Under the pieces are notes generated by a model that was not told the origin of the DNA, ran no database searches, and saw only the letters and a program-made list of their open reading frames with translations. From Paraprevotella clara YIT 11840 (GTDB lineage: Bacteria > Bacteroidota > Bacteroidia > Bacteroidales > Bacteroidaceae), in NCBI RefSeq assembly GCF_000233955.1, contig NZ_JH376604.1:1-64000 (forward strand): a DNA stretch of 64,000 nt. The letters are read 5' to 3'. A program made the position numbers and the translations under genes. Positions 30,364-49,570 of the stretch are shown piece after piece (within the stretch, counting starts at the first letter, position 1; each line of letters opens with the position of its first letter).

Positions 30364-30978
30364 TTACGTAATCATTTCCTTTTTTACATTTTGTGGCCGA
30401 TAACTTTGTACTGGGCGGGTATGGATTGCTTTCAGGCAGTCTATTACCGCCATGTCTTTCTGATTAGAATCTATTAATATAGGCCAATGCCATTCCGTTC
30501 CCCATCCGCTTTCATTGGCATTGAACGTGTGTAACACTTTCCTTAATGCATTTTTGGAAAAGCATGGGAACATCATTTCTACGAAACTGGTATAATGGAG
30601 TACGGACAGTTTGTTTCGTAAAGTGTGGGGATAAGTGTAATATGAGTCGCTCAATCCTGGTTGTGCAATTTGTAGGTTGTATCCTCGCATTAACATGAAC
30701 AAATTATTGATGTTTTGGCTGTCCATCAGGATGTCATCGTCCGGAATGAAAAAATATTCATATTTTTCAAGGTATTCAGGATGGCGGTTCATGTATTTAT
30801 ATACCAACTTGAGCTTATATCCTTTCATTGAACAAATATATTCCGTATCATTCTTGTATTTGTCATAAGAATCATCATATATGATAAGGTGGAGGTCGAA
30901 GTTTTTATACCCCTTTATCCAATTTTGATGCAGGCTGTCTTTCCCTATAGCCGCAATTACGCAGTCTCTCTCTTTCAT
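30364..30978 (-). CDS. DUF707-like putative glycosyltransferase
   Basis: A 204-residue protein. FDLHLIIYDDSYDKY, then YFFIPDDDILMDSQNI (an acidic DDD like a GT-A metal site), IAQPGLSDSYYTY, ESGWGTEWHWP and AVIDCLKAIHTRPVQSY follow the DUF707 pattern. No reaction has been assigned to this family as far as I know, but the fold pattern suggests sugar transfer. It is divergent from the UDP-xylose synthase gene. A paralog lies at the other border of the cluster (52771-54003). Confidence 0.7.
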   Translation of the reverse strand: MKERDCVIAAIGKDSLHQNWIKGYKNFDLHLIIYDDSYDKYKNDTEYICSMKGYKLKLVYKYMNRHPEYLEKYEYFFIPDDDILMDSQNINNLFMLMRGYNLQIAQPGLSDSYYTYPHTLRNKLSVLHYTSFVEMMFPCFSKNALRKVLHTFNANESGWGTEWHWPILIDSNQKDMAVIDCLKAIHTRPVQSYRPQNVKKEMIT

Positions 30979-31113: not shown

Positions 31114-32103
31114 ATGAAAGACATATTAGTTGCGGGTGGTGCGGGTTTTGTAGGTTCTCATTTATGTGAGATTCTATTAAGACAAGGTCATAGAGTGACC
31201 TGTATAGATAACTTCTATACAGGACGCTATGAGAATATTTCACATCTTTACGCTTTCCCTTATTTCAAATTTATAAGGCATGACGTACTTCAGCCTTTAT
31301 CGATTGTAGGGATAGATGAAATCTATAATTTAGCTTGTCCGGCTTCTCCATTGCATTACCAAAAGGATTCCATATATACGCTGAAAACATCGGTAATAGG
31401 GACGTTGAATTTATTGGAGTTGGCGCGGAAAAATCATAGCCGATTCTTGCAGGCTTCTACCAGTGAGGTTTACGGTGATCCTCAGGTACACCCTCAAACG
31501 GAAATTTATTGGGGTAACGTAAATCCGAATGGTGTCCGTTCCTGTTATGACGAAGGTAAACGTTGTGCAGAAAGCCTATGTATGGATTATTATCGTCAGC
31601 ATGGATTGCCGGTGAAGATTATTCGCATATTTAATACTTATGGCCCCAATATGTCTTTTGATGATGGCCGGGTTGTTTCTAATTTTATCATCCAAGCCTT
31701 AAGGAGGCAAGATATAACTCTATATGGAGACGGAAGCCAAACCCGCAGTTTTCAATATATAGATGATTTAATAGATGGTATGCTCCGTATGATGTGCACG
31801 GTCGATTCGTTTACCGGTCCTGTGAATCTGGGAAATCCGGAGGAGTGTACCATAAAAGACCTTGCTGTTCAGGTAATAAAGTTGACTCAATCTGATGCGA
31901 GAATCGTTTGTCGCCCTCTTCCGATGGATGACCCGTGCAGAAGAAAACCGGATATAGGGTTGGCATGCCGAATGTTGGAATGGAAGCCTATGGTTTCTTT
32001 GAATGAAGGTTTGTTGAATACGATACATTATTTTAAAAACATTTTAAATACAAAGGAACATGAAGAAGTTGACATTAAAGGATTTGCAGTCATTGGCTCA
32101 TGA
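31114..32103 (+). CDS. UDP-glucuronate decarboxylase (UDP-xylose synthase)
   Basis: A 329-residue short-chain dehydrogenase-type enzyme. NAD site [11 protein letters not shown] (residues 6-16), [44 protein letters not shown] (Tyr-x3-Lys) and [10 protein letters not shown] are the signature blocks of UXS. It converts UDP-glucuronate to UDP-xylose in the cytosol. Its end overlaps the first GG-leader gene by 44 nt in another frame, so the two are tied together. In this cluster it would supply donor for the GT14 enzyme. dTDP-glucose dehydratase is less likely because the SEVYGDP...YWGNVNP block is UXS-specific. Confidence 0.88.
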
Positions 32104-33439
32104 GTTGCCGGTGGTTAGTGAGAAGGAACAGCGCGTTTACGTGGGTGGCGGCACAGGTAGCAATCTGAATCCGTTCAGTGAGGAAGAATACCGTTCGATG
32201 TTGGGTGACGGTACTTGGGAAGGCGGTTTTGTGATGACCGACGAATCAGGTTCGACAGGAATGTCGATGCAATATATACCTTCTTCCACTTCGGCAGAGG
32301 AAGATTTGTTGCCTGAATCAGCAGAAAATCACGATTTGTATTCGATGTTTGACAACCACCAGCTCATGACGATGGATTTGAATGATGGTGATAGCGAGAA
32401 TTGTAGCACGATGCCTTCTGGTTATTGGGATGGTTCAGGCTTTTGGACGGGATCAGGTTATTTGGATGGTTCGGGCTATTGGGATGGTTCCGGTTATGTA
32501 ACGGCTTCTGGTTATTGGGACGGTTCGGGTTGGACTGATAAGGTTTCCGGTGATTGGGCTTTTGAGCGTGATTTGTCAGAAGTTGATGTACGCCCGGAAA
32601 AAGGAGGTACTTCCGAGGTCGTGGTTCGTCCGGGATCCGGTGGTGGAAGTTTCGGTGGTGGTTTCCAAGACATAGGTGGTTTGTTTGATGGCGGAGGACA
32701 TAATGGAAGTGGAAACACGGGCAGTGGCAATAATGTAGGAGGAGGTACATCCGGTGGAAGTGGGGCTTCTTTAGTTGGGGGTGGTTCTTCTTCCAATGGG
32801 ATTATAACTGGAGGTCATGGGGTTGGACACGGAGGTGGAAATGACTCTAAGACGGATGAGGAACGGTTCAAGGATAATGTCGTAAAGGGGGAAGAATGGA
32901 AGAGCTTGACCCAAGCGCAAAAGGATATATTCAAAAAACTGGATATTCAAATAAACGAAGATTTGGATAATCCTCAATATGATTCAAAGAATAATGTCAT
33001 GTATATTTATGATGCCAATATGAATGTCAATTCATTAAAACATGAAATGCTACATGCATATCAAGACCAAATTTTAGATGCGTTAGATGGTGCGACAAGC
33101 CATTCAAATGGTGAATTTCAAGCTTTCCTGATGGATAGTATAAGAGGAAATATTAATATGAATAAGATTACCAACGAGGGCCTTTCTGCTTTTTACGATT
33201 GGCATGGAAAATATGTTGAGTTAGGGGATACCACTATCACGGTGGATAAGAATGCCTTTAAGAGTGCCGAGTTTGACAAGATGTATGCAGGCTTTAGGGA
33301 TCGTCACAAAGAACTGGCAGAGAAAGCAACGGACAAATCGCTCAAAGCGGCTTATGAAAAATATGCCCAAGCCCCGGATCCCAATTATAAGTGGGAGTGG
33401 GAGAAAGTGTTGGATTTTTCCGGTGTTCAAGTAAAATAA
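32060..33439 (+). CDS. GG-leader export substrate 1 with YWDGSG repeats and an HExxH domain
   Basis: A 459-residue protein. Residues 1-31 are a double-glycine leader ([14 protein letters not shown]..., VGGG at 28-31) suited to the C39 peptidase transporter. Residues 122-157 hold six repeats of YWDGSG type; about 185-265 are Gly/Ser-rich with several more GSG sites. The C-terminal domain (about 280-459) has HEMLH (328-332) and Glu352 in NGEFQAF, a gluzincin-like zinc site. It has no Sec signal. Probably cleaved after Gly-Gly, exported and possibly O-glycosylated on GSG serines. The target of the peptidase-like domain is unknown. Confidence 0.8.
32423..32530 (+). repeat. Six 18-bp repeats encoding YWDGSG-type units
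   Basis: Six in-frame units of 18 bp encode [30 protein letters not shown] and YWDGSG, followed by W. Each unit keeps an aromatic residue first and Ser-Gly last; four of the six match DGSG. Codon use for Gly and Ser varies between copies, so the repeat is kept for its protein sequence rather than by recent DNA slippage. Confidence 0.9.
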
Positions 33440-33446
33440 ACTGTTT

Positions 33447-34067
33447 ATGAGAAGGTTAAGTGCTTGCATGGTGTTGCTGTTTTACTTTTCATTAGGTTAT
33501 GCCGGTGATTATGGTAAAATCGTAAAGTATGATGTCCTTTACAGCGGGGATAGCGTTTGTTGGAAGATAGGGCCTTTTAAAACTTACATGGCGGAGTTTT
33601 TGAAGGATGTCCCCCGGTATACGTATGAATGGGAGGTTCGGCAGTACCAGATGGATTATTATGGAGCGAGGATATTGGAGCCGGAGTTTTGGCCTTCGGG
33701 GATGCGATATAACCGATATGTAAGGGCAGATTATGACGTGTTGACCAACTTCTTTGTGCAGTTGTTGACTTATGAGGAACGAGAGGCCTTGTTGGCACAC
33801 AAAGGGAAGTTGTGGTTTGATTGTGCCGTAGACTGCAATGGACGTGTGTGCCTGGTGCCTTATATTTACGTGTCTCCTTCTTTGTGGGAGTATTTCCCGG
33901 CAGAGCGCTTGTATGTACTGATCCGGCATATCAAGAACAACGCGCAGTTCACCCTGCCTCCTTCGTCCATGACTTTTGGCTGCATGTTTGTGACGGCGGG
34001 ACTTTCTCTGTTGAGGCCTAATTACCTTTCGGGTGTGTTATATGAAAAAGTTTACGAATATGATTAG
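33447..34067 (+). CDS. Secreted protein of duplicated pair, type A (copy 1)
   Basis: A 206-residue protein with a signal peptide (MRRLSACMVLLFYFSLGYAG). The mature part has YSGDSVCWK near the start, LTYEEREALLAHKGKLWFD in the middle, then CNGRVCLVPYIYV and PAERLYVLIRHIKNN. The V-D-x-x-G-R-V plus following helix weakly resembles a TonB C-terminal-type fold. A paralog (type A copy 2) lies at 34672-35271 with the same landmarks. Function unknown; location in the export cluster suggests an envelope or immunity role, which is inference. Confidence 0.65.
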   Translation: MRRLSACMVLLFYFSLGYAGDYGKIVKYDVLYSGDSVCWKIGPFKTYMAEFLKDVPRYTYEWEVRQYQMDYYGARILEPEFWPSGMRYNRYVRADYDVLTNFFVQLLTYEEREALLAHKGKLWFDCAVDCNGRVCLVPYIYVSPSLWEYFPAERLYVLIRHIKNNAQFTLPPSSMTFGCMFVTAGLSLLRPNYLSGVLYEKVYEYD

Positions 34068-34653
34068 AGTGTTTTTGTTGTGCCTGTGCCTTTCAGTCTT
34101 TAAGGCTTACGGCCAAGATGTGCGGATATTAAAAAGTGTCCCCTTGCCGGAAGGGGATACGGTCGTATGGGGTCGTGACAGTTTGTGGGGAAACTACGTC
34201 TATTTCCAAAAAGAGTATGAAAGGTATGTGGAGTTTTTCCATTACCGTGATACGGCCAAGACGGATGACGAGTCCGTATGGCTGATGTACCAAAGCCTTC
34301 GTAAGCCTGGGTTAAGAGAGGTTCAGAAAAAGTTGGGTGACCTTTTGATAGGTTGCATGGCGACAATGGCTGCACCGGATACGATAGAAATCCAGAATGT
34401 GTCTTTTATGCTTGATAAAGAGGGCAGGATTGCTGTAGTAGGCCGGATGTACGTGTCAGATAATCCTAAAATGTTAAAAATGCCTGTCGAAGTATTCTCG
34501 GCCATTTCCCGCCGCATGAAAACGGAGATAAAGTATCCCTCCTTGCCGGGCAAGGATTATTATCCGTGGGGAATAAGTATAGAACTTATAGACGTGAATA
34601 TCGGTCATTATACATTTCCATGGATTTCGGATATTTCGGCGACTGTTTATTAG
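34042..34653 (+). CDS. Secreted protein of duplicated pair, type B (copy 1)
   Basis: A 203-residue protein with a signal peptide (MKKFTNMIRVFLLCLCLSVF, cleavage near KAYG). Landmarks are EGDTVVWGRD, VYFQKEYERYVEFFHY, SFMLDKEGRIAVVGRMYV and DYYPWGISIE. The B family shares the strand-G-R-strand-helix pattern with type A and is probably a distant relative. ATG 34042 gives a 26-nt overlap with the A gene, exactly the overlap seen in the second A-B pair, which supports this start. Confidence 0.65.
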   Translation: MKKFTNMIRVFLLCLCLSVFKAYGQDVRILKSVPLPEGDTVVWGRDSLWGNYVYFQKEYERYVEFFHYRDTAKTDDESVWLMYQSLRKPGLREVQKKLGDLLIGCMATMAAPDTIEIQNVSFMLDKEGRIAVVGRMYVSDNPKMLKMPVEVFSAISRRMKTEIKYPSLPGKDYYPWGISIELIDVNIGHYTFPWISDISATVY

Positions 34654-34671
34654 GCGATATTGATGATGTCC

Positions 34672-35271
34672 ATGAAAGTAGTGTGTATTTTGTTGGCGGT
34701 GTGCTGGATGGTGTGTATCCATCCGGCCTCCGGCCAAATATTGGGAGAAGGTTATGAAATCCTTTCCAATGGGGACACTGTCTGTTGGAAAAATGGAAGA
34801 TGTGATACATTGTTCTTTTTAAATGATATTCCCCGATATAAGTTGGAAAAAGTGAGGCAGAATGAAAAGGATTACAATGAAGGCGCGGTTTCCATATACT
34901 GGGGGTACACAACACTGTTTGATGCTTACGTGAAAAAGTATCATGCCACCTTGACAAATTTTTGTTACCAAATGCTGACGTATGAGGAACGCATGGCATT
35001 GGTAAACAGTGGCGGTGAGTTTTTCTTTCATTGTGCGGTAGATTCCAATGGACGTGTGGTATTGATACCTTTTTTTGCGATGCCACATGAAGTGAGGAGG
35101 GTATTCACGGCAGAACGTTTGTATGACTTTTCTCGTCATATAAAAAATATCTGTCAATATCCGCTGCCTCCGGCCTCCATGACGATGGGTTGCATGTTTT
35201 TGTTCGTTGATTTGACATCTTATTTTTCTGAGGAAGGAGTATTTTATGAAAGGTCTTGTGGTTATTATTAA
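34672..35271 (+). CDS. Secreted protein of duplicated pair, type A (copy 2)
   Basis: A 199-residue paralog of the 33447-34067 product with signal peptide MKVVCILLAVCWMVCIHPASG. Shared landmarks: SNGDTVCWKNG, QMLTYEERMALVNSGGEFFF, SNGRVVLIPF, AERLYDFSRHIKN and PLPPASMTMGCMF (PLPPSSMTFGCMF-like in copy 1). Several ATGs are in frame; 34672 is chosen because it begins the signal peptide. Function unknown. Confidence 0.65.
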   Translation: MKVVCILLAVCWMVCIHPASGQILGEGYEILSNGDTVCWKNGRCDTLFFLNDIPRYKLEKVRQNEKDYNEGAVSIYWGYTTLFDAYVKKYHATLTNFCYQMLTYEERMALVNSGGEFFFHCAVDSNGRVVLIPFFAMPHEVRRVFTAERLYDFSRHIKNICQYPLPPASMTMGCMFLFVDLTSYFSEEGVFYERSCGYY

Positions 35272-35869
35272 GTCGTTTATGTTTGTGGCGTGTTTCCTTC
35301 CCCTTCCCCTTTCCCTTTATGGCCAGGCTGAGCGGGAATTCAAGCGCGAGGTTTTGTCTAATGGAGATACGGCGGTTTGGACGCATGCGAAATGGAGGGG
35401 GAAGATTCCTATGTTTCGTGTCTATTTCCAAAAAGAGCATGAAAGTTATGTCTGCCAGTATAAATACAAAGATACGGTTCGGGCTCGTGATTTGGATGTT
35501 GATTTGTGGCGTACTTATCATAGTCTTTCCAATCCGTATATATGGAAATCCCACAAAGAACTGGGGGATTTTCTGGTAGAGAATATTGGTGCCTTGGGAA
35601 AAGAATTCCGGTTACCGCTTTTCGTTGTGTTCATGCTGGATGGCGATGGTAGGATTGTGTCCGTGGATCATTTTTCTTTTTTAGACTCCCTGAGTGAAAA
35701 GATTCCGGCCGAGTACCTGTCTGATGTGTCGTGTCGCATGAAAAAGGAAATCAAATATCCACGGATGTATGGAAAAAGGTATTATCCATGGGGGATAAAA
35801 ATCTTGAAGGAAGACATGGGGCGTGGCCACTATGAGTTTCAATATATTCCATTTAATTTCTTGCACTGA
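35246..35869 (+). CDS. Secreted protein of duplicated pair, type B (copy 2)
   Basis: A 207-residue paralog of the 34042-34653 product with signal peptide MKGLVVIIKSFMFVACFLPL, cleavage near LYGQA. Shared landmarks: LSNGDTAVW, VYFQKEHESYVCQYKYKDT, FMLDGDGRIVSVDHFSF and KRYYPWGIKIL. It overlaps its A partner by 26 nt and ends in TGATG overlapping the next start. Function unknown. Confidence 0.65.
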   Translation: MKGLVVIIKSFMFVACFLPLPLSLYGQAEREFKREVLSNGDTAVWTHAKWRGKIPMFRVYFQKEHESYVCQYKYKDTVRARDLDVDLWRTYHSLSNPYIWKSHKELGDFLVENIGALGKEFRLPLFVVFMLDGDGRIVSVDHFSFLDSLSEKIPAEYLSDVSCRMKKEIKYPRMYGKRYYPWGIKILKEDMGRGHYEFQYIPFNFLH

Positions 35870-36720
35870 TGATGAAAAAAATCTATATAATATTATTGAT
35901 ATTTGTTCTATATTCAGTAGATTATGTTCGTAGTATAAATGTAACTGATGAAAATCAACATTGTAATACTGAATCAGTAGAGCAACGGATTTTATCTTTT
36001 TATAGTTTATATATGCGAGAAATGGAGGACTTGATGGCTTTGGAAAAAGAATATTTAACTAAGAATATGAGGGATAAATGTATACGTGTGTCTTCAGTTA
36101 ATGATATAAATGTTTTTCTTCGTGCTCAGGATTATACGGATTATGCATTGCAAACATTATCGTGTAGGCATTTGGAAGGATTATGGTATGAAATCTCTTA
36201 CAGATTTTATGAGCATTCGGAGATTGTAAGAATTCCGCTTCGGTTAGACAATCTTTCGAGGGAACCTCGTATTACCTATGTGGTTCCTTTATGGGGAGGA
36301 CAAGAGTATGGAGATTCTCTTTTTCAAGTAACTCCAGTAAGGATCGAAGATGATGAACCAGACTCTTTTCTTCGGACTTTTTATCAGGTGTATACAAACT
36401 TATATGTGATTATGCCGGATACTTTAGATATAGGATTGTCTCATTTACGTGAAATGTATTGTACTTCTGATTTTAAAATGCAATATGATTCTTTGAAACA
36501 ATATTATAAGGAATATGATGGGATATTGACGTATGACGCCTTGGTAGATAACTCGGACTTTGATGCTTTTTGGAAATCATCATTGGGGGGTGAAAGAAAA
36601 GATTCGTTGCAATACCAAGTTTCATATAGAATAGATAAGTCTTGGGAGAAATCATTTTTGGTATACCTGAAAAAAGAAGGAGGAGGTTATAAAATAGATA
36701 GGATTGTGGATGACTTCTAA
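35869..36720 (+). CDS. Secreted hypothetical protein, possibly DUF3828-like
   Basis: A 283-residue protein with a signal peptide (MMKKIYIILLIFVLYSVDYV). It has two similar halves: RILSFYSLYMREMEDLM...TYVVPLWGGQ...RIPLRL and LSHLREMYCTSDFKMQYDS...VDDF, each a helix pair followed by strands, as in DUF3828-type proteins. It is translationally coupled to the B2 gene (TGATG). The gene is AT-richer than its upstream neighbours. Role unknown. Confidence 0.55.
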   Translation: MMKKIYIILLIFVLYSVDYVRSINVTDENQHCNTESVEQRILSFYSLYMREMEDLMALEKEYLTKNMRDKCIRVSSVNDINVFLRAQDYTDYALQTLSCRHLEGLWYEISYRFYEHSEIVRIPLRLDNLSREPRITYVVPLWGGQEYGDSLFQVTPVRIEDDEPDSFLRTFYQVYTNLYVIMPDTLDIGLSHLREMYCTSDFKMQYDSLKQYYKEYDGILTYDALVDNSDFDAFWKSSLGGERKDSLQYQVSYRIDKSWEKSFLVYLKKEGGGYKIDRIVDDF

Positions 36721-36728
36721 TAATTTTG
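36721..36728 (+). promoter_or_regulatory. Candidate -7 box before the GT14 gene
   Basis: TAATTTTG matches TAnnTTTG and begins right after the stop of the preceding gene, about 50 nt upstream of the GT14 ATG. No clear -33 element at the right distance, so it may be a weak internal promoter. Confidence 0.35.
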
Positions 36729-36777
36729 TTAAAAGGAAAGAGCGAATGTTTATAGGTTTTTAAAAGAACATGTCACC

Positions 36778-38256
36778 ATGAAACACGCTGTGCTTATTTT
36801 GGCTCATAAGAATTATCCTTTGTTGTGTAGACTTATACGATATTTTGCAAAGGATTGCGAAGTGTTCGTCCACGTGGATAAGAAAAGTAAGTTCACAAAG
36901 GATGAGATAGGGCAATTGTATGAATATGATTCGGTGAAAGCAGTAGTTCAGAAGTATGATGTGCACTGGGGAGGATTCAGCATGCTGAAGGTGGAACTGT
37001 ACCTGCTTCGGTTGGCGATGAAGCAATCTGATGCTGCATATTTTCATTTGATCAGTGGTCAGGATTATCCTGTGAAGCCTTTGCCTTTATTTCTTGCTTT
37101 TTTTGAAAAGAATAAAGGAAAGATTTATCTGGATTATAAACATATTCCTTTTGTGGGGCGCGATTATAACGGGTTTTATCGTTTCCAGTATTACATGCCT
37201 TATGATTATATAGACGGTAGGTCACCTAAAGGAAAGCGAATCATTTATAAATTTTACGTATGGCATAAGAGGTTGCATATTAAAAGACGGATCCCAGACC
37301 AGTTTTATCATTTATATGGTGGTTCACAGTGGTTCTCTATTACCCGTGAGGCAGCCGACGTGTTAGTGGGTTATACCCGTAAACATCCGGCTTTTTACCG
37401 TCGGATGAGATTTACTTTTGCTCCGGAAGAGAGCTATGTGACGACTGTTTTGGTGAACAAAATGCCTGGGAACCTAATTGTCAACAATAATCTGAGATAT
37501 GTGAGATGGATGTGCGAGAACGGTAATAATCCGTCTAATCTGGGGAAGGAACATTTTGAAGGAGTGGTGAAAAGTACTGCCTTTTTTGCCCGTAAAATGG
37601 AGTCTCCTTATTATGAACCGCTGACAATGTGGATTGATCGGTATTTATTGTCAGACCATGGCATACGTTTCTTGGAAAATGGGGTATGGGTATACCGTTC
37701 GCTTAATATGTTTCGTTATGATGCTTCTTTGGCAAAAACAATGGTTTTATTTTGTCGGTTGGCAGGGGTGGTGAATGTTGTGGATGCCGGATGTGGGTGT
37801 GGAATGTACGTGGCTGCATTGCGGAAAAATGACATCCCTGTGGTTGGATTTGACGGAAACCCTTATACTCAAGAACTTGTAACTTCTCTTTATCCTATGG
37901 GATTACCTTGTACTGTTGCTGATTTGACAGATGAATTGGAAACAGATGGTACTCCGTTTGATTTGGCTGTATGCTTGGATGTACTGCCATATATAAATCG
38001 GGAACATGAAAATCAGGTTTTGGCAAATTTGGTTGGATTGACGAAAAGGTATATTTTACTATCCTGGCCTGCTGTCGGGGCAGGAACTTTAGGGTATGTG
38101 AGTCTGCGTCCGGCAGAATATGTTGTAAGAAGGTTGGAAGAATTCGGTTACAAAAAAAGTGACGGATGGACTGATTATTTCTGCTCTTCGGCTTCTTTGC
38201 CGGATTATAAGACCTCTTTGTTTTTATTTGAGAAAACAGGAACCGACCTTAAATAA
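36778..38256 (+). CDS. GT14 (core-2/I-branching, xylosyltransferase family) glycosyltransferase fused to a methyltransferase-like domain
   Basis: A 492-residue protein. Residues 1-280 match the GT14/Branch family: EVFVHVDKKSKF, YDVHWGGFSMLKVEL, AAYFHLISGQDYPVKPL, YGGSQWFSITREAADVL and FAPEESYVTTVL. GT14 includes GlcNAc-transferases and animal peptide O-xylosyltransferase. Residues about 325-490 form a SAM-binding-like domain (VVDAGCGCGMYVAAL, CLDVLPYINREHE). Beside UDP-xylose synthase and GSG-repeat substrates, xylosylation of exported proteins is a reasonable inference. Alternatives are another sugar donor or a polysaccharide acceptor. The methyltransferase-like part could cap the glycan. 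Confidence 0.8.
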   Translation: MKHAVLILAHKNYPLLCRLIRYFAKDCEVFVHVDKKSKFTKDEIGQLYEYDSVKAVVQKYDVHWGGFSMLKVELYLLRLAMKQSDAAYFHLISGQDYPVKPLPLFLAFFEKNKGKIYLDYKHIPFVGRDYNGFYRFQYYMPYDYIDGRSPKGKRIIYKFYVWHKRLHIKRRIPDQFYHLYGGSQWFSITREAADVLVGYTRKHPAFYRRMRFTFAPEESYVTTVLVNKMPGNLIVNNNLRYVRWMCENGNNPSNLGKEHFEGVVKSTAFFARKMESPYYEPLTMWIDRYLLSDHGIRFLENGVWVYRSLNMFRYDASLAKTMVLFCRLAGVVNVVDAGCGCGMYVAALRKNDIPVVGFDGNPYTQELVTSLYPMGLPCTVADLTDELETDGTPFDLAVCLDVLPYINREHENQVLANLVGLTKRYILLSWPAVGAGTLGYVSLRPAEYVVRRLEEFGYKKSDGWTDYFCSSASLPDYKTSLFLFEKTGTDLK

Positions 38257-38277: not shown

Positions 38278-39735
38278 ATGAAAAGCTTCTGGATTATATT
38301 ACTTTTATACTTCCCTTGCCCTTTGTTGAGGGCAGATCGCCCCATTACATTGGAAATGGCGATAAATGAATTGGCACTGAAAAGTACCTCTGTACAGGTA
38401 GAATTACTACGTTTGAAAAATGAATTACTTACTTTTGATAACTATAAGAAAGAATTTCTCCCGGCTTTGCAGTTGACGACCCGGTTGGTTGAATTTAATC
38501 ATTCTTTGAAGCTTCTGCAAAATGCGTTGGATGGAAACTATCTTAATGTAGAAGATTATTCTACGAGTAGCAGTGTAGGGATGACTATACAACAAAAAAT
38601 ATTTCATACAGGAGGAACTTTTGCATTAAACAGTAGCGTGAGTGTTTTGCGAGAACATTCCGACAATCGTAATAATTTCACAACAACTCCTTTTTATGTC
38701 AGTTACAGCCAATCGTTTTGGGGTGGGCGTAAGCAAAACATCATGGAACGAAGCCTTTATCGTTTAAGGTATGATTTGGCATTGAAAAATTATTGTACGT
38801 CGGTTTCTTCAATACAGCAGAAAGTCTTAGTCTTATATTTGGAGGCATTTCTGAGTAAATTAGAGCAAGAACAGCTTCGTGAGGACATTCAAATCAATGA
38901 TACTTTGTTGCAGATAGCCGAACTGAAACTAAAAGAAGGTTATATTACGGAATATGATTACAACCAAATTGAATTACAAGGCTTGCACATTAATTATGCT
39001 TATGAGAATGCGTTACGAATATTTCGCGAGAATTTGCGGAAATTATCTGCCGAGTTGGGAATTGACGAACAGATAAGCATTCAGTATCCGGATAAAGATA
39101 TATTGCCTGGCTTTTTAAATGAAGACGTGGTCATTCGGTACATCGAAAGAAATAATCCTCAGAGATTGGCTTGGGATATGCAACGTAAACAGGCTGAGTA
39201 TGATTTGTTCCAAGCTCAGGCAGAAACGAGGTTTAACGGGACTATTTCTGTGAATTATGGGTTGAACCAGTATGCTGAGGATTTCTTTACAGCCTATAGG
39301 CATCCAAATTCTCAACAGAATATAAGTGTAGGGTTGTCAATTCCTGTATTTCAGTGGGGGATTAATAGGAATAAGCGAAAGATAGCCCGCAATGAATATG
39401 AGGCTACCTTATTAGAAATAGAAAAGTCGGAACTGGATTTTTTAAGTAATCAGAAAGAACAGATCAATAATTATAATTATGCTGTGCATACTTACGATTT
39501 GATGGAAAGGGGATATGAACTGGCTTGCAGGCAGTATCAGTTGGCGGTACAGAAATTTGCATTAGGCAAGATTTCCGTATACGAATTGACTTCAACGAGG
39601 CAAGAACAATATACGGCTATGCAAGACTATTATACAGCTATGGAGAGTCTGTATGTAAATTACTATAATTTACGTCATTTGTCGCTTTATGACTTTGTAC
39701 GTAAACAATCTTTAGAGGAGTTGTTGGTGCCATGA
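38278..39735 (+). CDS. TolC-family outer membrane efflux protein
   Basis: A 485-residue protein with signal peptide MKSFWIILLLYFPCPLLRA. It has the two-repeat helical hairpin layout of TolC: LTLEMAINELALKS-like start, SVGMTIQQKIFHTGGTFAL strands, then a long second hairpin (LLQIAELKLKEGYITEYDYNQ) repeated near the end (YQLAVQKFALGKISVYEL). It should form the outer membrane exit for the HlyD-like and ABC proteins of this cluster. Stop and next start overlap (ATGA). Confidence 0.85.
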   Translation: MKSFWIILLLYFPCPLLRADRPITLEMAINELALKSTSVQVELLRLKNELLTFDNYKKEFLPALQLTTRLVEFNHSLKLLQNALDGNYLNVEDYSTSSSVGMTIQQKIFHTGGTFALNSSVSVLREHSDNRNNFTTTPFYVSYSQSFWGGRKQNIMERSLYRLRYDLALKNYCTSVSSIQQKVLVLYLEAFLSKLEQEQLREDIQINDTLLQIAELKLKEGYITEYDYNQIELQGLHINYAYENALRIFRENLRKLSAELGIDEQISIQYPDKDILPGFLNEDVVIRYIERNNPQRLAWDMQRKQAEYDLFQAQAETRFNGTISVNYGLNQYAEDFFTAYRHPNSQQNISVGLSIPVFQWGINRNKRKIARNEYEATLLEIEKSELDFLSNQKEQINNYNYAVHTYDLMERGYELACRQYQLAVQKFALGKISVYELTSTRQEQYTAMQDYYTAMESLYVNYYNLRHLSLYDFVRKQSLEELLVP

Positions 39736-40733
39736 AAGAGGATATGGAAAGAGTAAGAATGGTAATCAGGCATTTTGCTGATTATGTATTGTTGGATAGT
39801 TGTGCTTATCAATCTGCTGGTTTTTATAACGGGCAAGCTGGAGTTGCACTGGCTTTGTTTGAATCTGCCCGTATGTTGGATGATTCTTTTTTGGAGGAAC
39901 AGGCTTTTAATTTGTTTCAGAAATCGCTTTTAAGTCAAGATGCAGATATGGGCTTTCAAGAAGGATGGGCGGGGATAGGTTTTGTGTTGGCTTATTTGTC
40001 ACATTACCGTTTTATTGATACAGATCTTGATGAGTTGTTTAAAAAACGGATCTACCAGATCTGTGGCTATATTGAAGATGGGATTAACAAGCATAGATAT
40101 ATGGTGCAGGACATAGCATTAGGTTTTTTTATGAATTTCCTTACGAAACAGTGTGGTTGGGAAGAAATGGAAAGTCTAAGGTATGGGTTTTATAAGAGTG
40201 TTGAAAGTCAAATCCTTTGTGCTTTAGAGGCATACGAAATGAAACCCAATCAAAATTTTAGGATGTCATTTCCTGATTTGTTTGTTACTTATTTGGAGTT
40301 GTCACGATTTGATGGTTTTTATGAACGGGAAAATATTATAGAGATGTATGGAAGGATTAGTGGTAAGCATTCTGCTATCCATTCTTTTTATATAGAACAA
40401 ACAGGTGGTTGGAATGGAAAAAATAAACGCCGGACTTTATATGAATGGCCTATGCTTTTGCGGGGGCTGCCGTTAAAACACTTTATGAATGTGCTACATT
40501 TACTTTTAATAGATAAGGTGCATAACATTGAAGTAAGTAAGTGGATTGCAGAAAGGTTGATAAATCAGCCTTTGGATGAGATAGAAAAGGAACTTTTATC
40601 TCATTTGCATCCTAAGATGCTGTTGTCTGGATATGGTGACGGGGTTTCGCGATTTTTGTTGTTATTATGTCAACTTATGGGAGAATGTGATAAGATGGAC
40701 ATGGGGCGGATGAATTGTTTATTTAAACCATGA
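39732..40733 (+). CDS. LanC-like protein lacking the zinc ligands
   Basis: A 333-residue helical protein. SAGFYNGQAGVALALFESARM and QEGWAGIGFVLAYLSHY are G-x-x-G turns of the LanC-like alpha/alpha toroid. The Cys, Cys and His that bind zinc in LanC cyclases (WCxG and CHG blocks) are not found, so thioether cyclisation is unlikely. No lanthipeptide dehydratase is nearby. It may bind or present the GG-leader substrates, or act on their sugars. It is coupled to the TolC gene by an ATGA overlap. Confidence 0.65.
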   Translation: MKEDMERVRMVIRHFADYVLLDSCAYQSAGFYNGQAGVALALFESARMLDDSFLEEQAFNLFQKSLLSQDADMGFQEGWAGIGFVLAYLSHYRFIDTDLDELFKKRIYQICGYIEDGINKHRYMVQDIALGFFMNFLTKQCGWEEMESLRYGFYKSVESQILCALEAYEMKPNQNFRMSFPDLFVTYLELSRFDGFYERENIIEMYGRISGKHSAIHSFYIEQTGGWNGKNKRRTLYEWPMLLRGLPLKHFMNVLHLLLIDKVHNIEVSKWIAERLINQPLDEIEKELLSHLHPKMLLSGYGDGVSRFLLLLCQLMGECDKMDMGRMNCLFKP

Positions 40734-40734: not shown

Positions 40735-41991
40735 ATGAAAATGAAAAATGTTAATTTATTTTTGATGGATATGATCAATGTGGGGGCTATGAATGGAGTT
40801 ACCCGATATTTGAATATATTAGCCGGATTGTTGTCTCAAAAAAATATTTATCATGTAACTTGGATAAGATTTACATGGGATAGAAAATTGTTAGGAATCA
40901 AACGAATTGTATGTGACGGCTATGTGCAAATAATAATTCCGCTTCCACATGATATGAATCGGTTGTTAGGGAATCCCCATTGCATGCGAGATTATAATAA
41001 AGTGGTATTTCATTTGTTAAAAGAGGATTTTGAAAAAGGTGGAATTTGTATTCTACATTTACATACGCTGAATTTGATAGATTTGGCTATGTATATAAAA
41101 CAAAGGGTTCCATGTAAAATCATTACGCATTTGCATTGCATTCCATGGAAGGGGTTGTACAATACGGATAAAGAACGTTTCAATGATTTGTATCAAAAAT
41201 ACTATCTCGGTAAGGGGGATGTCCGGATGTCGGACTTTATATCTAAACGATACGAATTGCAGTCGTATCTCTTTTCGGACGCTGTGGTTTGTGTGACAGC
41301 GTGTGCAAAAGATTTTATATTACGTTTTTGTGTTGTCCCTTCTTCTCGTATACGAGTGATTTATAATGGAATGAAAGACGAATGTAAAGAGAGAAATATA
41401 AGAAGGAAAAAGGTGGATTTTCCTGTGAAATGTCTTTATGTAGGCAATATGAACGAAAGTAAGGGATTGCATCTGATATTGAAAGCGCTGAATCTCGTTC
41501 GGGAAAAGTATCCGGTTATTTTGACTGTTGCAGGACAATGCTCTCAGAAGCAGAGGGAAAAATGGCAAGAAGAGTATCCGAATTTGTTCTTGAAGTTTAC
41601 AGGGTTGATTCCTTTTGAGGAATTGAAACAATGTTATATAGACAATGAGATAGGCATAATTGCTTCTTTACAAGAACAATGTAGTTACGTGGCTTTGGAA
41701 ATGATGATGTTTGGACTGCCCGTCGTCACTACGAATGTGGACGGGTTAGATGAACTTTTCGTTCAAAACGAGAATGCTCTTAAGGTTCCCACTTGTTATG
41801 ATGAGAATGTCGGACTTACAGTGAATTTGGAACAGTTAAGCACTGCTATTTTAGAACTTATTGAGAAGAAAAACTTACGTGAACGGATAGGACATAATGC
41901 AAGGCATACTTTCATTGACAGATTTACGGAAACACGGATGGTGGAAGAAACGCATAATTTGTATCAGGCAGTACTACAGAATGATTTATAA
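40735..41991 (+). CDS. Glycosyltransferase family 4 (GT1/GT4-like)
   Basis: A 418-residue GT-B protein. The C-terminal half has CLYVGNMNESKGLHLILKAL, VAGQCSQ, FTGLIPFEELKQCY and the E-x7-E type motif ASLQEQCSYVALEMMMFG followed by PVVTTNVDG. The N-terminal part has HLHTLNLIDLAMYI and ITHLHCIPWKG. It should transfer a sugar from a nucleotide donor in the cytoplasm. Two nt after the LanC-like gene; likely part of glycan assembly on the exported substrates. Confidence 0.85.
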   Translation: MKMKNVNLFLMDMINVGAMNGVTRYLNILAGLLSQKNIYHVTWIRFTWDRKLLGIKRIVCDGYVQIIIPLPHDMNRLLGNPHCMRDYNKVVFHLLKEDFEKGGICILHLHTLNLIDLAMYIKQRVPCKIITHLHCIPWKGLYNTDKERFNDLYQKYYLGKGDVRMSDFISKRYELQSYLFSDAVVCVTACAKDFILRFCVVPSSRIRVIYNGMKDECKERNIRRKKVDFPVKCLYVGNMNESKGLHLILKALNLVREKYPVILTVAGQCSQKQREKWQEEYPNLFLKFTGLIPFEELKQCYIDNEIGIIASLQEQCSYVALEMMMFGLPVVTTNVDGLDELFVQNENALKVPTCYDENVGLTVNLEQLSTAILELIEKKNLRERIGHNARHTFIDRFTETRMVEETHNLYQAVLQNDL

Positions 41992-42013: not shown

Positions 42014-42280
42014 ATGAAAAAGTTGACATTGAAAGATTTACAGTCATTGGCGCATGTAATGGCACATGTGAGCGAAATGGAACAACGTTGTTTTGTTGGT
42101 GGCGGTACTGATGGTAACTATATAGTATTAGGAGAAGTTGCTCATAGGAATATTCCGATTACTGTAAAGATGCCTGTTGGTACATTTGACACATCGCAGA
42201 AATTGCTTATGCTCATACCCGGTTGGGGGATTGCGATATCTTACGTTATAGGGGTTACTGATACAATGATTGGTTACTGA
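42014..42280 (+). CDS. GG-leader export substrate 2 (small, hydrophobic)
   Basis: An 88-residue protein with the cluster leader, [20 protein letters not shown], and VGGG at residues 28-31. The mature part of about 58 residues ends in a hydrophobic segment (LLMLIPGWGIAISYVIG). It has the size and form of a small bacteriocin or pore-forming peptide. The next gene (142-aa membrane protein, 1 nt downstream) has the position expected of an immunity protein. No HExxH or repeat is present. Confidence 0.7.
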   Translation: MKKLTLKDLQSLAHVMAHVSEMEQRCFVGGGTDGNYIVLGEVAHRNIPITVKMPVGTFDTSQKLLMLIPGWGIAISYVIGVTDTMIGY

Positions 42281-42281
42281 T

Positions 42282-42766: not shown

Positions 42767-43606
42767 ATGAAAAAGTTGACATTGAAAGATTTACAGTCAT
42801 TGGCGCATACAATGGAGCATGTGAGCGAAACGGAACAACGTTGTTTTGTTGGTGGCGGTACGGGTGGTAACTTGGATCCGTTTACTTACAAAGAGTATGA
42901 GAACATGTTGAATGGCGGTACGTGGAATGGAGGCTTTGTCCTTATGGACGGAAGAGATGGTTCGGATTCCTCCATGCAATATATTCCATCTTCTTCGTTC
43001 GGAACGGATGAAGATTTGGTATGTGAGACTTTTGATTCTCAAATGTCTTTGTATGAAAATCATCAGATAATGACGATGGCTTTGGGTAATACGGGAAACG
43101 ATGGCGGAACGGTACCGTCCGGTTATTGGACGGGATCCGGATATATAAATGGATATTATGATGAATCCGGTGTGTGGATTAGTTCTGGTTATTTGAATAA
43201 TTCTGGAATATGGATTGATTCGGGAGCATATAACCCAGAGGAAGATTGTTATGACAAAAGCGGATATTTTCCTGAGATAACGGTTTGGCCAGAGGATGAT
43301 CCTTATTCATTTTTTACGTCTCAAGGACTGGCAAAAGATGTGAGGATTGTCTATTCGAATGGAAATATTACTTATGATCTCAATAGTTTACCAACTATTC
43401 CAAACGATACTTGGGATACCATGTATAAAGGTGGATTTGAAATAGGTTTTAAGGCAGGTATTAGTAGTATCCCCAGTTTTTTTGTGGATTTATATGCTAT
43501 GGTGAATTATGCTGTAGCTGAAGAAGATTGGTCTACTTTTTATTATGCGAAAGGATTACAAGATGGTTTGAATATGGGGAAAAATGCGTATGAACATTTC
43601 CGATAA
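42767..43606 (+). CDS. GG-leader export substrate 3 with degenerate Trp/Tyr-Ser-Gly repeats
   Basis: A 279-residue protein with the cluster leader (VGGG at residues 28-31), whose first 100 nt are nearly identical to substrate 2. After the leader it parallels substrate 1: [21 protein letters not shown], an EDL segment, then PSGYWTGSGYINGYYDESG and VWISSGYLNNSGIWIDSG. The C-terminal 100 residues have no HExxH and include a possible hydrophobic helix. ATG 42767 is chosen over a TTG at 42761. Probably exported and possibly glycosylated like substrate 1. Confidence 0.75.
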   Translation: MKKLTLKDLQSLAHTMEHVSETEQRCFVGGGTGGNLDPFTYKEYENMLNGGTWNGGFVLMDGRDGSDSSMQYIPSSSFGTDEDLVCETFDSQMSLYENHQIMTMALGNTGNDGGTVPSGYWTGSGYINGYYDESGVWISSGYLNNSGIWIDSGAYNPEEDCYDKSGYFPEITVWPEDDPYSFFTSQGLAKDVRIVYSNGNITYDLNSLPTIPNDTWDTMYKGGFEIGFKAGISSIPSFFVDLYAMVNYAVAEEDWSTFYYAKGLQDGLNMGKNAYEHFR

Positions 43607-43607
43607 A

Positions 43608-45404
43608 ATGAGAAGATTTATGAATTTCTTTTTCTTGATATTACTTGGGCTTGTAACATTTTCTTGTACTCATTCTAATTCAGTAACGGAGAGATGTTAT
43701 ACGGATGTATATCGATTGGATTTTGATTTGTCAAAGAGGTGTGAAAATGGATATCCGTGGTTACAGAATCCTGTATATAGTAACTTTCATATTCCAAATA
43801 TAGAGAACGAAGATGGGCGCAAACTTTTGAAATTTTGTGGGTTGGAGGGGTTTCCCATACAGGAAATGAATCAATTAAAAGTCGATTTGTATCAAAAGAT
43901 ACTAATGCCTTTACAAGCAACAAAAGATGGGTGTGTGCGGTTGGAATGTAAAGGGAATAATTTAAGAAAAGTTGCTTTAATTATAGGAGGGGAAACAGAA
44001 CAGGAAAAGAGGCTTTTTTTGGATACGTTGTTGTTTAATCCAGATAGTTTATGGGGAAAGTATTCCATATCATTTCCTTCTCAGAAGGTAAGCCTTTTAT
44101 CCATAAGAATATATGCAGAAGGAATCCCCATGAAACCTGCTACTTTGACATTGTCTCGTTGTGCCATATCTTTAGATGGTAAACCTATTGATGATTTTGA
44201 GGTTAGAGTTCCATTTCCTGTTACGGAGGAGGAATATACAACTATAAGTTTGAATGTGGGAGATATTGGGGATTCGATTTTTTCGGTTTGTCCTGCTAAA
44301 ATTATAGGCTTGTGTGAATCTGTCCATAGAAGCAGCGGGATACAGAGGTTGGAAGCTAATTTAATAATGGAACAAGTCCACCATGGACGGACAAAACTTA
44401 TTCTTATAGAGAGGTCTCTAGAGTCTTCTTTAGCTTATAATCATTATATACATCATGAAGAGGTTGATTTAGATACTGTACTTTTTTATGATGCTCCAAA
44501 TCCTTTTTTATTGGAAGAATTGAGGATGTTTAATGCCGGAAGAGCTGAGGAGGAGCAGGTAAGTATATTAGGAATAGATTATGAATATGAAAAAGCGGAT
44601 TCTCATAGTTATTGTGGAGATATGCTGTTTGATTTCTTGGTTTGGGTGAATACCGGGAAACAAAGTAGAGCCGTAAATCAATTGGCGGAATTAGTGGTGT
44701 CGGGAGAATGGTATCAGGCCAATGGATTATTTAAGGGGAGAAAAGCAGAAATGTTAGAAATATTGAGTGGAGAGGAATACGAGTGTATTGATCTTGTTTT
44801 GAGATATGCCCAGAAAATAAATAAAGATAGGGTAGGGGGAAGCATTGCAAGAGATTCAATGATGTTTGAACGTTCTCGATTTTTAATAGAACATTTAGGG
44901 TATAATTCGGAACGAATTTTTCTATGTGGTCAAGTTTCACATCTTAATTTAGCTTCTTCTTATCCAAATCCAATAGATGTAAAACCTTTAGGAAAGGCTT
45001 TGAAAGATAGATACGGAGGGGAATATATGTGTTATTTATTATCGGTTAGTAGTGGAAATACGGAGAGGTATGGGCAAGATTTTAAGATTGAAGATAGGGA
45101 GTTGCAACTTACACCGGAAGGCAGTCTGGAGTATAGTTTGATGGAAAGGAAGTACTTATCGGTGTATGTTCCCATAACAAGGAAACTTGATAGATTACTT
45201 CTGACTCGTTGGGGAGGACTCTTTCAACTCGAACAGGAATTTTATCCCATGAATTTATATTCAAGATACAATGGTCTTTTTTTTGTAACTGATACAGTCT
45301 TAAATACTCCAAAAAGAAATACTGATATAATGGTTAAGGATATTAATAGGCAGAAATATCGAAAAAAAATAATGTGTGAAATTCTGTCTAATGGTAAAAA
45401 ATGA
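43608..45404 (+). CDS. Erythromycin esterase-like lipoprotein
   Basis: A 598-residue protein with a lipoprotein-type signal (FFFLILLGLVTFSC, Cys as the first mature residue). Residues about 20-210 look like a beta-rich domain. The second half carries the EreA-type motifs: IIGLCESVHRSSGIQ (Glu-x2-His), LILIERSLESS, and IARDSMMFERSRFLIEH (R-D-x3-M-like). The EreA/ChaN/TIKI clan contains metal-dependent hydrolases, not only macrolide esterases. In this cluster it may process the exported product at the cell surface. Starts 1 nt after the stop of substrate 3. Confidence 0.7.
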   Translation: MRRFMNFFFLILLGLVTFSCTHSNSVTERCYTDVYRLDFDLSKRCENGYPWLQNPVYSNFHIPNIENEDGRKLLKFCGLEGFPIQEMNQLKVDLYQKILMPLQATKDGCVRLECKGNNLRKVALIIGGETEQEKRLFLDTLLFNPDSLWGKYSISFPSQKVSLLSIRIYAEGIPMKPATLTLSRCAISLDGKPIDDFEVRVPFPVTEEEYTTISLNVGDIGDSIFSVCPAKIIGLCESVHRSSGIQRLEANLIMEQVHHGRTKLILIERSLESSLAYNHYIHHEEVDLDTVLFYDAPNPFLLEELRMFNAGRAEEEQVSILGIDYEYEKADSHSYCGDMLFDFLVWVNTGKQSRAVNQLAELVVSGEWYQANGLFKGRKAEMLEILSGEEYECIDLVLRYAQKINKDRVGGSIARDSMMFERSRFLIEHLGYNSERIFLCGQVSHLNLASSYPNPIDVKPLGKALKDRYGGEYMCYLLSVSSGNTERYGQDFKIEDRELQLTPEGSLEYSLMERKYLSVYVPITRKLDRLLLTRWGGLFQLEQEFYPMNLYSRYNGLFFVTDTVLNTPKRNTDIMVKDINRQKYRKKIMCEILSNGKK

Positions 45405-48970: not shown

Positions 48971-49570
48971 ATGAAAAGTTTGAAAAAATTATCAATTGAT
49001 CAAATGAGAATTGATTTTAAAGTGTTGACACCTTCCCAGTCGCAAGAATTTGTAGGTGGAGGAAATCCGATAAAAATCGGTGGAGGCTTCTTGGAAGTAA
49101 CGGAGATTGACGGAGTAAAAGGAACTATTTATAAAGGAAATGATGGTTCAACTTATTTTTTTGAAGGTGTTAACGTTGGAAGTGGAGATGGGCCGACAGT
49201 TGGAGGAACTGCATGTCAGATAGGTGGTACAATATATGTGGGAGATAACCCTAATTCTTTTGATATTAATGATATGGTGCATGAATATGGACATTTTTTA
49301 CAAGAAGAGGCAATGAGAGGGAAGGCTGCTTGTATCGGTGGTACACTTGGTTATGCTTATGTTGGTATTAAAGGGGGTATGGTAGGAGCTTATTTAGGTT
49401 ATATGTACGGATATGCATTGTACTGTGGGGGATTTAGTGCTTATGGTTATGTGTGTAATATGTCCGATGAAGATTATTATAATTTACCGTCTGAAAAGTC
49501 TGCAAATGAATATGGAAATGAATATATGAGAAATAAATATGGGAAAGATGCTCCTCAAGCAACTGAGTAA
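48971..49570 (+). CDS. GG-leader export substrate 4 with HEYGH metallopeptidase signature
   Basis: A 199-residue protein. The leader differs in sequence (MKSLKKLSIDQMRIDFKVLT) but keeps VGGG at residues 28-31. The mature part has HEYGH (104-108), a zinc-binding HExxH, and SEKSANEYGNEYM (Glu175, Glu180) in the place of a third ligand. Between them is a Gly-rich hydrophobic stretch (GYAYVGIKGGMVGAYLGYMYG) that could insert in a membrane. It follows the transporter by 34 nt. Probably an exported peptidase-like or pore-forming effector. Confidence 0.72.
   Translation: MKSLKKLSIDQMRIDFKVLTPSQSQEFVGGGNPIKIGGGFLEVTEIDGVKGTIYKGNDGSTYFFEGVNVGSGDGPTVGGTACQIGGTIYVGDNPNSFDINDMVHEYGHFLQEEAMRGKAACIGGTLGYAYVGIKGGMVGAYLGYMYGYALYCGGFSAYGYVCNMSDEDYYNLPSEKSANEYGNEYMRNKYGKDAPQATE

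Follow-up and report, generated by a model that had tools for sequence, protein, structure and literature searches.

A Paraprevotella gene island as a candidate bacterial system for serine xylosylation of exported proteins

Can a bacterium of the gut place xylose on serines of the proteins that it exports, using an enzyme of family GT14? To our knowledge, serine-linked xylose made through GT14 is known only from eukaryotes. The question is raised by 21 plus-strand genes at positions 31114-52594 of a 64-kb stretch of Paraprevotella DNA, the whole of which (64,000 nucleotides, nt) was analysed and is called the window here; the draft genome of the host comprises 4.23 Mb. This operon-like run, with intergenic gaps of at most 57 nt and frequent overlaps, opens with the genes of a UDP-glucuronate decarboxylase (UDP-xylose synthase, UXS) and of PreA, a protein with a double-glycine (GG) leader and Ser-Gly repeats, and includes a GT14 glycosyltransferase fused to a class I methyltransferase (GT14-MT). 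An earlier note on this DNA had read the decarboxylase, the repeat protein and the GT14 enzyme as a serine xylosylation system. This reading was partly upheld: UXS and GT14-MT genes also stand together in other genomes, and three of the seven loci with both carry a Ser-Gly excess; the other four do not, and a GSG-rich protein was found in a cluster of a relative, G009, that showed neither GT14 nor UXS. As a source of a new bacterial modification, the locus is a good candidate.

UDP-xylose synthase, Ser-Gly repeats and GT14-MT in the window and elsewhere

The best solved-structure match of the first gene product was human UXS1 (phmmer E 4e-110; next family 2e-37), and by this closest family the protein is a UDP-xylose synthase, predicted to convert UDP-glucuronate (UDP-GlcA) to UDP-xylose, as the note had proposed. 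Candidates for a UDP-sugar dehydrogenase were present in the genome (four matches over the Pfam cut-off). The 3′ end of the UXS gene overlapped the start of the PreA gene by 44 nt, in the order and at the coordinates given by the note, and because of this overlap the two genes are probably co-translated. The GT14 gene, said to follow in the same direction, does lie on the same strand, but five genes (33447-36720) stand between it and PreA. Its product combines a PF02485 (Branch) domain (E 5.6e-23) with a C-terminal methyltransferase domain (PF13649, E 9e-7), the latter an addition to the first reading.

PreA (459 amino acids, aa) and PreC (279 aa) have their leader in common with the short PreB. 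In PreA, the leader is followed by a GTWxGGxV segment, the repeat region, a Gly-rich stretch and a C-terminal HExxH-type domain, whose profile had no match in a search of solved structures; neither PreA nor PreC matched the Bfe1 type VI secretion system (T6SS) effector model NF053698. Tandem Repeats Finder reported an array of 18-nt period at 32416-32531, and the six units counted by the note in PreA, four of them reading DGSG, were all recovered. The nine GSG of PreA compare with a mean of 1.0 in composition-keeping shuffles, none of 20,000 of which reached nine. The serine codons of the six units differ (TCA, TCA, TCG, TCC, TCT and TCG); the serine and the next glycine are invariant. In the repeat regions of PreA and PreC, which were picked by eye, 8 of 8 and 7 of 8 serines, respectively, are followed by glycine and are proposed as acceptors, the remaining PreC serine preceding another serine. 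The 50-aa repeat region of PreC contains seven Ser-Gly pairs versus a shuffle mean of 1.4 (0 of 20,000 as high). When the 100 aa starting from the GTWxGGxV segment were taken instead, Ser-Gly was found at 8 of 17 serines in PreA and at 6 of 15 in PreC, numbers equalled or exceeded in 2 and 49 of 5,000 shuffles, respectively. PreC has a single GSG, and the residue preceding serine is mostly glycine in PreA and varied in PreC, so that the feature common to both proteins is a serine followed by glycine.

A nine-protein GT14 profile was run against named genomes, and the best 80 of 201 relatives gave 78 loci with up to 10 kb of DNA on each side, a set from which the genome of the window itself was possibly left out. 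By query coverage, we divided them, in a split of our own, into 25 GT14-MT fusions (among them a broken copy, L177, and a copy in two frames, L142) and 53 unfused GT14 loci; some of the loci come from a common metagenome-assembled genome. UXS genes of at least 50% identity lay near 7 of the 25 fusions and none of the 53 unfused genes (Fisher p 1.8e-4), a comparison confounded by taxonomy, since the unfused loci include Flavobacteria and lactobacilli. At all seven loci (L117, L127, L131, L136, L137, L138 and L159) UXS was on the GT14 strand, and the fraction with UXS was 6 of 16 when at least 7 kb of upstream DNA was present. With one UXS at a random place in each 3.3-Mb genome, the chance of at least 7 in 25 would be about 1e-10. 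Remote UXS relatives (23-34% identity) near the unfused L148, L166, L168, L172 and L175 were left out of the count. Among 19 genomes of the genus, GT14-MT (E 1e-50 or better) was present in G000, G004, G007, G011 and G017; UXS (at least 57% identity) was found in four of these five (G000, G007, G011 and G017) and in none of the 14 others (p 0.0013), two of which, G005 and G012, gave weaker GT14 matches. The UXS of G011 sits in another type of cluster and the GT14-MT of G017 is broken, and on contig 61 of G017 the UXS gene clusters with those of an exporter and an unfused GT14. Taken together, these counts strengthened the view that UXS and GT14-MT belong together beyond the window.

DUF4422 genes were near 4 of 25 GT14-MT and 0 of 53 unfused loci, and C39-peptidase ABC exporter (PCAT) genes near 7 of 25 and 2 of 53 (both at 40% identity). 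GT4 and GT2 genes of the window type were found near none of the 25 or the 53 loci at the same identity, remote GT4 relatives being present in six unfused loci; thus, these two transferases do not explain the link between UXS and GT14-MT. Unrooted trees separated 12 UXSs taken from leader-peptide, effector or GT14 clusters (three of them of the GT14-less C8 type) from 15 background UXSs with support of 100/100 and 100/99. Around 29 background UXS genes from the order and 28 from the family, no homologues of other window genes were found up to a distance of about 1.5 kb. Of the outlying UXSs, L233 belongs to the L138 contig and is not independent, L234 adjoins a UDP-galactopyranose mutase (GLF) gene, and no GT14 was seen by tblastn at L235-L237.

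Two types of neighbour stand beside GT14-MT. The first, at L117, L118, L120, L121, L123, L124, L125, L127, L135 and L138, consists of modular proteins with an NPYTxEEFExMLxxGTWPGGYV segment, mostly followed by a Ser/Asp/Trp-rich linker (with PWDSSS in L123), a Gly/Asn stretch and, where recognised, an enzyme domain (NlpC/P60 in L117, CHAP in L124, an HExxH-type motif in L138); no GG leader was seen in them, and no C39 exporter in the flanking DNA covered. L138, with UXS, DUF4422, GT14-MT and effector in this order, represents the system in small. The C-terminal domain of its effector is probably homologous to that of PreA, as suggested by 22% identity over 177 aa (pairwise E 1e-4), and this effector alone matched NF053698 (E 0.004), with 16.6 bits against a cut-off of 315 and hence below it. 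The second type, at L131, L136, L137, L142 and L159, comprises small leader peptides accompanied by a radical SAM protein (rSAM), an outer-membrane protein and an exporter; UXS was not seen at L142. In the cores of these peptides, Ser-Gly accounts for 3 of 9 serines in L131, 8 of 11 in L136, 6 of 7 and 2 of 4 in the two peptides of L137, 8 of 21 in L142 and 11 of 13 in L159. As many pairs were obtained in 3 of 5,000 composition-keeping shuffles for L136, 2 for the first peptide of L137, 0 for L159 and 81 for L142, and in 2,559 for L131 and 1,656 for the second peptide of L137, which thus show no excess.

The leader peptide of L136, from another Paraprevotella (6887-7171), has a core made up almost entirely of [ADE]DAGSGC repeats, with eight GSG in 95 aa (0 of 20,000 shuffles), close to the site described for the human xylosyltransferase XT1, in which serine is flanked by glycine with acidic residues between -4 and -2 (PMC5992326). 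This locus has a UXS with a frameshift near residue 66 and a shortened mutase, so that this copy may be decaying or misassembled. Other cores differ: those of L133 and L134 are Asn/Cys-rich with Ser-Gly at 0 of 12 and 1 of 8 serines, no UXS being found at these loci, for which little upstream DNA was covered, and those of G017 contig 61, which has UXS, are of NSSC/NSTC type. A leader peptide with Ser-Gly above composition therefore accompanies three of the seven loci with UXS and GT14-MT (L136, L137 and L159). Ser-Gly richness as a rule for such loci was rejected, as it holds in L136, the first peptide of L137 and L159 and fails in L131, L117, L127 and L138; Ser-Gly as the acceptor is partly supported, in the window and these three loci and not in four.

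Evidence against xylosylation and comparison of GT14-MT with XT1

Several findings weigh against serine xylosylation by this route. No UXS was present in the flanking DNA covered at 18 of the 25 GT14-MT loci, and none was found in G004 (82% complete), which has GT14-MT genes. UXS also occurs in clusters without GT14 (on the C8 contig of the window's own genome, in G011 and in G017). The GLF gene was near 6 of 25 GT14-MT and 7 of 53 unfused loci (at 40% identity; p 0.33), and near GT14-MT it is almost as frequent as UXS. No Ser-Gly excess was seen in the stretch tested at four of the seven loci with UXS and GT14-MT (L117, L127, L131 and L138), and in those with modular effectors Ser-Gly is scarce (1 of 19 serines in L117, shuffle mean 4.35; 0 of 9 and 0 of 12 in L127; 4 of 24 in L138). 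Finally, the second PreA-like protein of G009 has GSG linkers and Ser-Gly at 7 of 14 serines (a number reached in 7 of 5,000 shuffles). Its cluster, which contains GT4 and LanC-like genes, showed neither GT14 nor UXS, and a search of this 91% complete genome at E 1e-25 gave no UXS. Ser-Gly linkers thus also occur where xylosylation by UXS and GT14 is unlikely.

The enzyme itself adds further points of this kind. GT14-MT matched XYLT1 with E 2e-12 as a single sequence, and a profile of 29 GT14 proteins (A2) gave E 1.5e-27 with XT1 and 3.6e-9 with the core-2 GlcNAc transferase. However, a profile of 16 unfused bacterial GT14s did equally well (XT1 E 1.6e-23, core-2 1.1e-10) compared to one of 16 fused enzymes (XT1 6.5e-22), indicating that likeness to XT1 is a property of the family; XT1 as the nearest solved relative was therefore rejected as special evidence for the reading of the earlier note. 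By XT1 numbering, placed by counting along a pairwise alignment, Trp392, Trp495, Glu529, Arg598 and Lys599 are conserved in all 29 aligned GT14s (A2). In contrast, the xylose-contacting Asp494 is Gln in the window enzyme (Gln 17, Ala 7, Thr 4 and Cys 1 among the 29 rows), and Leu526, the gatekeeper of XT1 at C5 of xylose, is Ala. An XT1 Leu526Ala mutant is described as equally active on all three sugar donors tested (PMC13038410). The disulfide-bonded, peptide-binding flap of XT1, 13 extra residues in the profile alignment, is missing, the corresponding stretch of the window having one Cys; shortening of this flap abolished XT1 activity, and XT1 prefers a serine followed by glycine (PMC5992326). 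The Xylo_C domain, a hallmark of xylosyltransferases of glycosaminoglycan type, is absent, and the methyltransferase domain takes its place. With Asp494, Leu526, the flap and Xylo_C not kept, GT14-MT is not to be classed as XT1-type, although it plausibly works like XT1.

The Leu526 position is also Ala in L117, L127 and L138, and Val, Ile or Leu in L131, L136, L137, L159 and the enzyme of G017 contig 61 (Val in L131 and L137). Compared post hoc, 5 of the 9 rows associated with UXS had one of these three residues, versus none of the 20 remaining rows (p 0.001); outside that table, the unfused GT14 of G004, in whose genome no UXS was found, has Ile. The rSAM-type enzymes may thus be the best bacterial candidates for a peptide xylosyltransferase, above the enzyme of the window. 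Among viral contigs, the 80 loci kept all matched from residue 287 onward, that is, in the methyltransferase part, and none of 29 plasmid records reached 80% query coverage. GT14-MT copies broken by stop codons were seen on contig C21 of the same genome (L029) and on G017 contig 37 (L030). At L036 and L037, translations read as GT14 followed by an apparent GT2 domain, with no methyltransferase, adjoin leader peptides or exporters.

The proposed pathway and its rivals

That the run is a glycosylated-bacteriocin island, resembling clusters for ribosomally synthesized and post-translationally modified peptides (RiPPs), with serine xylosylation by GT14-MT, is to us a real possibility, held with slightly more doubt than belief. 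UXS would convert UDP-GlcA to UDP-xylose in the cytosol, where, ahead of export, GT14-MT would transfer it to serines of the PreA and PreC Ser-Gly repeats and perhaps methylate the sugar through its methyltransferase domain. Additional sugars would probably be attached or directed by GT4, GT2 and the LanC-like proteins. The C39-ABC exporter would cut behind the double glycine, and the modified proteins would leave through HlyD and TolC; the small proteins encoded after PreA may protect the producer. The sequences themselves establish the order of the genes, their families, the repeats and the recurrence of UXS with GT14-MT in other genomes. The action of GT14 on the repeats, the UDP-xylose donor, the O-Ser linkage, methylation, export and a toxic role are all what we infer from the sequences. 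The wider proposal, which we regard as possible but rather doubtful, is that Bacteroidota own GT14 peptide O-xylosyltransferases that place xylose on linkers with Ser-Gly, and possibly Ser-acidic, motifs, both in bacteriocins made with a leader peptide and in modular effectors that are secreted, a dedicated UXS lineage supplying the donor. In fold family and acceptor logic, these enzymes would parallel in bacteria the reaction that opens proteoglycan synthesis in animals, and a methyl group may be attached as well.

Ala at the Leu526 position, which in the XT1 mutant widens the donor range (PMC13038410), makes it conceivable, if unlikely, that GT14-MT glycosylates serines of the exported proteins with another sugar (such as GlcNAc, Glc or galactofuranose), UDP-xylose being used by GT2 or by DUF707 or DUF4422 proteins to extend the glycan. 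GLF genes near 6 of 25 GT14-MT loci point the same way, as do the second UXS of the genome, which has GLF, GT4-like and GT2 genes around it and no GT14, and the seven other genomes with the GT2 type, which are all among the genomes with UXS. Yet UXS is enriched near GT14-MT and GLF is not, and at L131, L137 and L159 GT14-MT is the sole transferase near UXS recognised by reference proteins (profiles were not run on every open reading frame, and the L131 sequence stops 0.6 kb beyond GT14-MT). That UDP-galactofuranose is the linked donor was rejected on the same lack of GLF enrichment near fused GT14s and is kept as a rival. GT2 as a specific UXS partner, considered since a GT2 homologue adjoins the second UXS, was also rejected: no UXS of at least 51% identity was found around GT2 homologues elsewhere, which in other genomes are mostly in LanC/PCAT clusters; GT2 could nevertheless be a user of UDP-xylose. 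A second kind of UXS cluster with no GT14 found was seen on contig C8 of the window's genome (L042), on C8 of G017 (L197) and on C32 of G011 (L198), and holds UXS with GT4-like, GT2 and small leader-like peptide genes, together with LanC-like or GLF genes.

It is quite unlikely, in our estimate, that GT4 with its LanC-like partner (or GT2) adds the first sugar to the serines and GT14-MT branches it, in the manner of core-2 GlcNAc transferases. GT4 and LanC-like genes stand beside PreA-like proteins in G009, G016, G275 and G289 with no GT14 labelled in the DNA read, and this order of events would also fit the GSG linkers of G009 and the annotation of related plasmid-borne GT14s as beta-1,6-N-acetylglucosaminyltransferase in 5 of 10 records listed. 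No UXS was found in G009, G016 and G275, so that the module needs no UDP-xylose there, a point counted for the main proposal; the GT4 module itself may act on serines. Branching is, however, hard to reconcile with L120 and L123, where effector and GT14-MT occur with no other same-orientation transferase of the reference set, or with the absence of window-type GT4 near the 25 GT14-MT loci; the GT14-MT profile is also nearer to XT1 than to core-2, though this is family-wide. A further account, in which the repeats serve purely as flexible linkers and the products of the UXS, GT14, GT4 and GT2 genes assemble a surface polysaccharide or a lipid-linked glycan encoded here by chance, appears very unlikely. 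Gly/Ser-rich spacers are common, UXS is carried by 266 of 384 genomes order-wide and 87 of 374 family-wide (both at E 1e-90), and a GT14 on contig C39 of the genome lies among genes whose translations resemble a polysaccharide region. Against this, the Pfam scan, which covered 19 of the 21 genes in the run, brought up no flippase or polymerase family, UXS and GT14 recur in small leader-peptide or effector clusters (L131, L136, L137, L138 and L159), and cluster UXSs differ from ordinary ones.

The gene run, its surroundings and known systems

The run (Table 1) is ordered as UXS, PreA, four small proteins, a DUF3828-like protein, GT14-MT, TolC, LanC-like 1 and GT4, followed by PreB, a frame at 42270-42710, PreC, an erythromycin-esterase-like protein, HlyD, the C39 exporter, PreD, a hydrolase-like protein, GT2/7C and LanC-like 2. 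With its GG leaders, C39 ABC exporter, TolC and a membrane-fusion protein (MFP) named by homology, it holds a GG-leader/PCAT bacteriocin-like set. All four small proteins have N-termini that look like signal peptides by eye, and DUF3828-like homologues are also near the GT14-methyltransferase genes of L117, L125, L135 and L177. The leader of PreD differs from the others, and PreD is possibly a second metallopeptidase-like cargo.

Table 1 Features of the window discussed in the text.
Feature	Position	Strand	Basis
DUF707-type protein, divergent, short	30364..30978	-	54-57% identity to a portion of the protein encoded immediately ahead of GT14-MT in L117 and L118
UXS, UDP-glucuronate decarboxylase (predicted UDP-xylose synthase)	31114..32103	+	Epimerase PF01370; phmmer to human UXS1
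PreA, GG-leader, putatively exported protein; Ser-Gly repeat linker, Gly-rich linker, C-terminal HExxH-type domain	32060..33439	+	
Six GSG-type units (five GSG, one ASG), candidate acceptor serines	32423..32530	+	
Small protein, paralogue of 34669-35271 (45%), possible immunity protein	33447..34067	+	No Pfam match
Small protein, paralogue of 35246-35869 (39%), possible immunity protein	34042..34653	+	No Pfam match
Small protein, paralogue of 33447-34067	34669..35271	+	Outside the Pfam-scanned set
Small protein, paralogue of 34042-34653	35246..35869	+	No Pfam match
DUF3828-like protein	35869..36720	+	Pfam score just under cut-off
GT14-MT, GT14 glycosyltransferase fused to class I methyltransferase, proposed peptide O-xylosyltransferase	36778..38256	+	
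TolC-like outer-membrane efflux protein	38278..39735	+	PF02321 E 1e-25
LanC-like protein 1	39732..40733	+	PF05147 E 7e-4, below cut-off
GT4 glycosyltransferase	40735..41991	+	Best model TIGR04157 E 5.9e-53, below its cut-off
PreB, short protein with the PreA leader	42014..42280	+	
PreC, GG-leader protein, 50% identity to PreA across 185 aa	42767..43606	+	
PreC repeat units	43124..43225	+	
Erythromycin-esterase-like protein	43584..45404	+	PF05139 E 9e-11
HlyD-like membrane-fusion protein	45432..46730	+	No Pfam match; named from position and homologues adjoining exporters
C39-peptidase ABC exporter (PCAT)	46738..48936	+	PF03412 E 1.5e-36, PF00005, PF00664
PreD, GG-leader protein with HEYGH motif	48971..49570	+	
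GT2/7C glycosyltransferase	50785..51558	+	PF02709 E 7e-6
LanC-like protein 2	51467..52594	+	PF05147 E 0.001, below cut-off

The GC content of the run (0.31-0.44) is lower than that of the preceding 10 kb (0.43-0.51), which suggested an acquired island. Directly before it, genes at 23625-29778 resemble, from their translations, a type I restriction-modification set. On contig C39 of the same genome, at about 255700-269400 (L075), an exporter cluster contains GT2, LanC-like and GG-leader protein genes and a 1337-aa DUF707-type protein; window positions 52771-54003 are 70% identical to the first part of this protein and 30364-30978 and 29900-30352 match later parts, so that the window may hold remnants of a C39-type DUF707 gene on both sides of the operon. 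A Bacteroides-type promoter pattern occurred seven times in the window (3.2 expected), none of these matches standing immediately upstream of UXS on the same strand. Within the operon, terminator-like sites are no more than matches to a consensus. No tRNA was found in the window, and an alignment of the upstream DNA of three UXS loci revealed nothing.

Several known systems share part of this design. Glycosylation of serine-repeat adhesins by SdgB or GtfA/B is likewise a cytosolic modification of Ser-rich repeats on exported proteins, but these are GT4-type GlcNAc transferases and the export route is different; the window GT4 matched the SdgB model weakly (E 2e-4). Bacteroides fragilis BfUxs1/2 (Coyne 2011), also from Bacteroidales, belong to the same UDP-glucuronate decarboxylase family and are reportedly linked to polysaccharide rather than to an exported protein. 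The run differs from class I lanthipeptide clusters in that no LanB was found among the 19 scanned genes and the LanC-like matches are below cut-off. It also lacks what defines a glycocin, a short Cys-containing core and a SunS-like transferase: PreB has a short core without Cys, and the transferases are GT14, GT4 and GT2/7C. Glycocins such as sublancin and glycocin F do resemble it in the glycosylated peptide, the double-glycine leader and C39-peptidase ABC export, but the known ones are short, contain Cys and carry Glc or GlcNAc added by other transferases (in part PMC12457901), compared to the long PreA and PreC, GT14 and proposed xylose here. Bacteroidales RiPP clusters with rSAM, LanC-like proteins and carbohydrate-active enzymes share GG leaders, PCAT, MFP, outer-membrane proteins, LanC-like proteins without LanB and some glycosyltransferases; the main text of that work does not mention xylos-, GT14 or epimerase, and the passages covered name no UDP-xylose synthase (PMC10352776). 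XT1 and XT2 share the GT14 catalytic domain, the five kept residues, a serine followed by glycine as the proposed acceptor, acidic residues near some units and UXS in the same pathway. The window enzyme differs in its bacterial origin, the replaced Asp494 and Leu526, the lack of flap and Xylo_C, the fused methyltransferase and an activity that is only predicted. By title and opening abstract, none of the literature matches listed described xylosylation of a bacterial peptide or RiPP, or a cluster of this kind with a GT14, weak evidence given that few subscription papers were covered.

If xylosylation by GT14-MT is correct, gut bacteria would modify proteins of competition with serine-linked xylose, and the origin of peptide xylosyltransferases would gain a bacterial branch that can be tested. 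Small clusters like L138 would offer compact tools for placing xylose on peptides in E. coli, and UXS genes of Bacteroidota would have a role outside polysaccharide regions.

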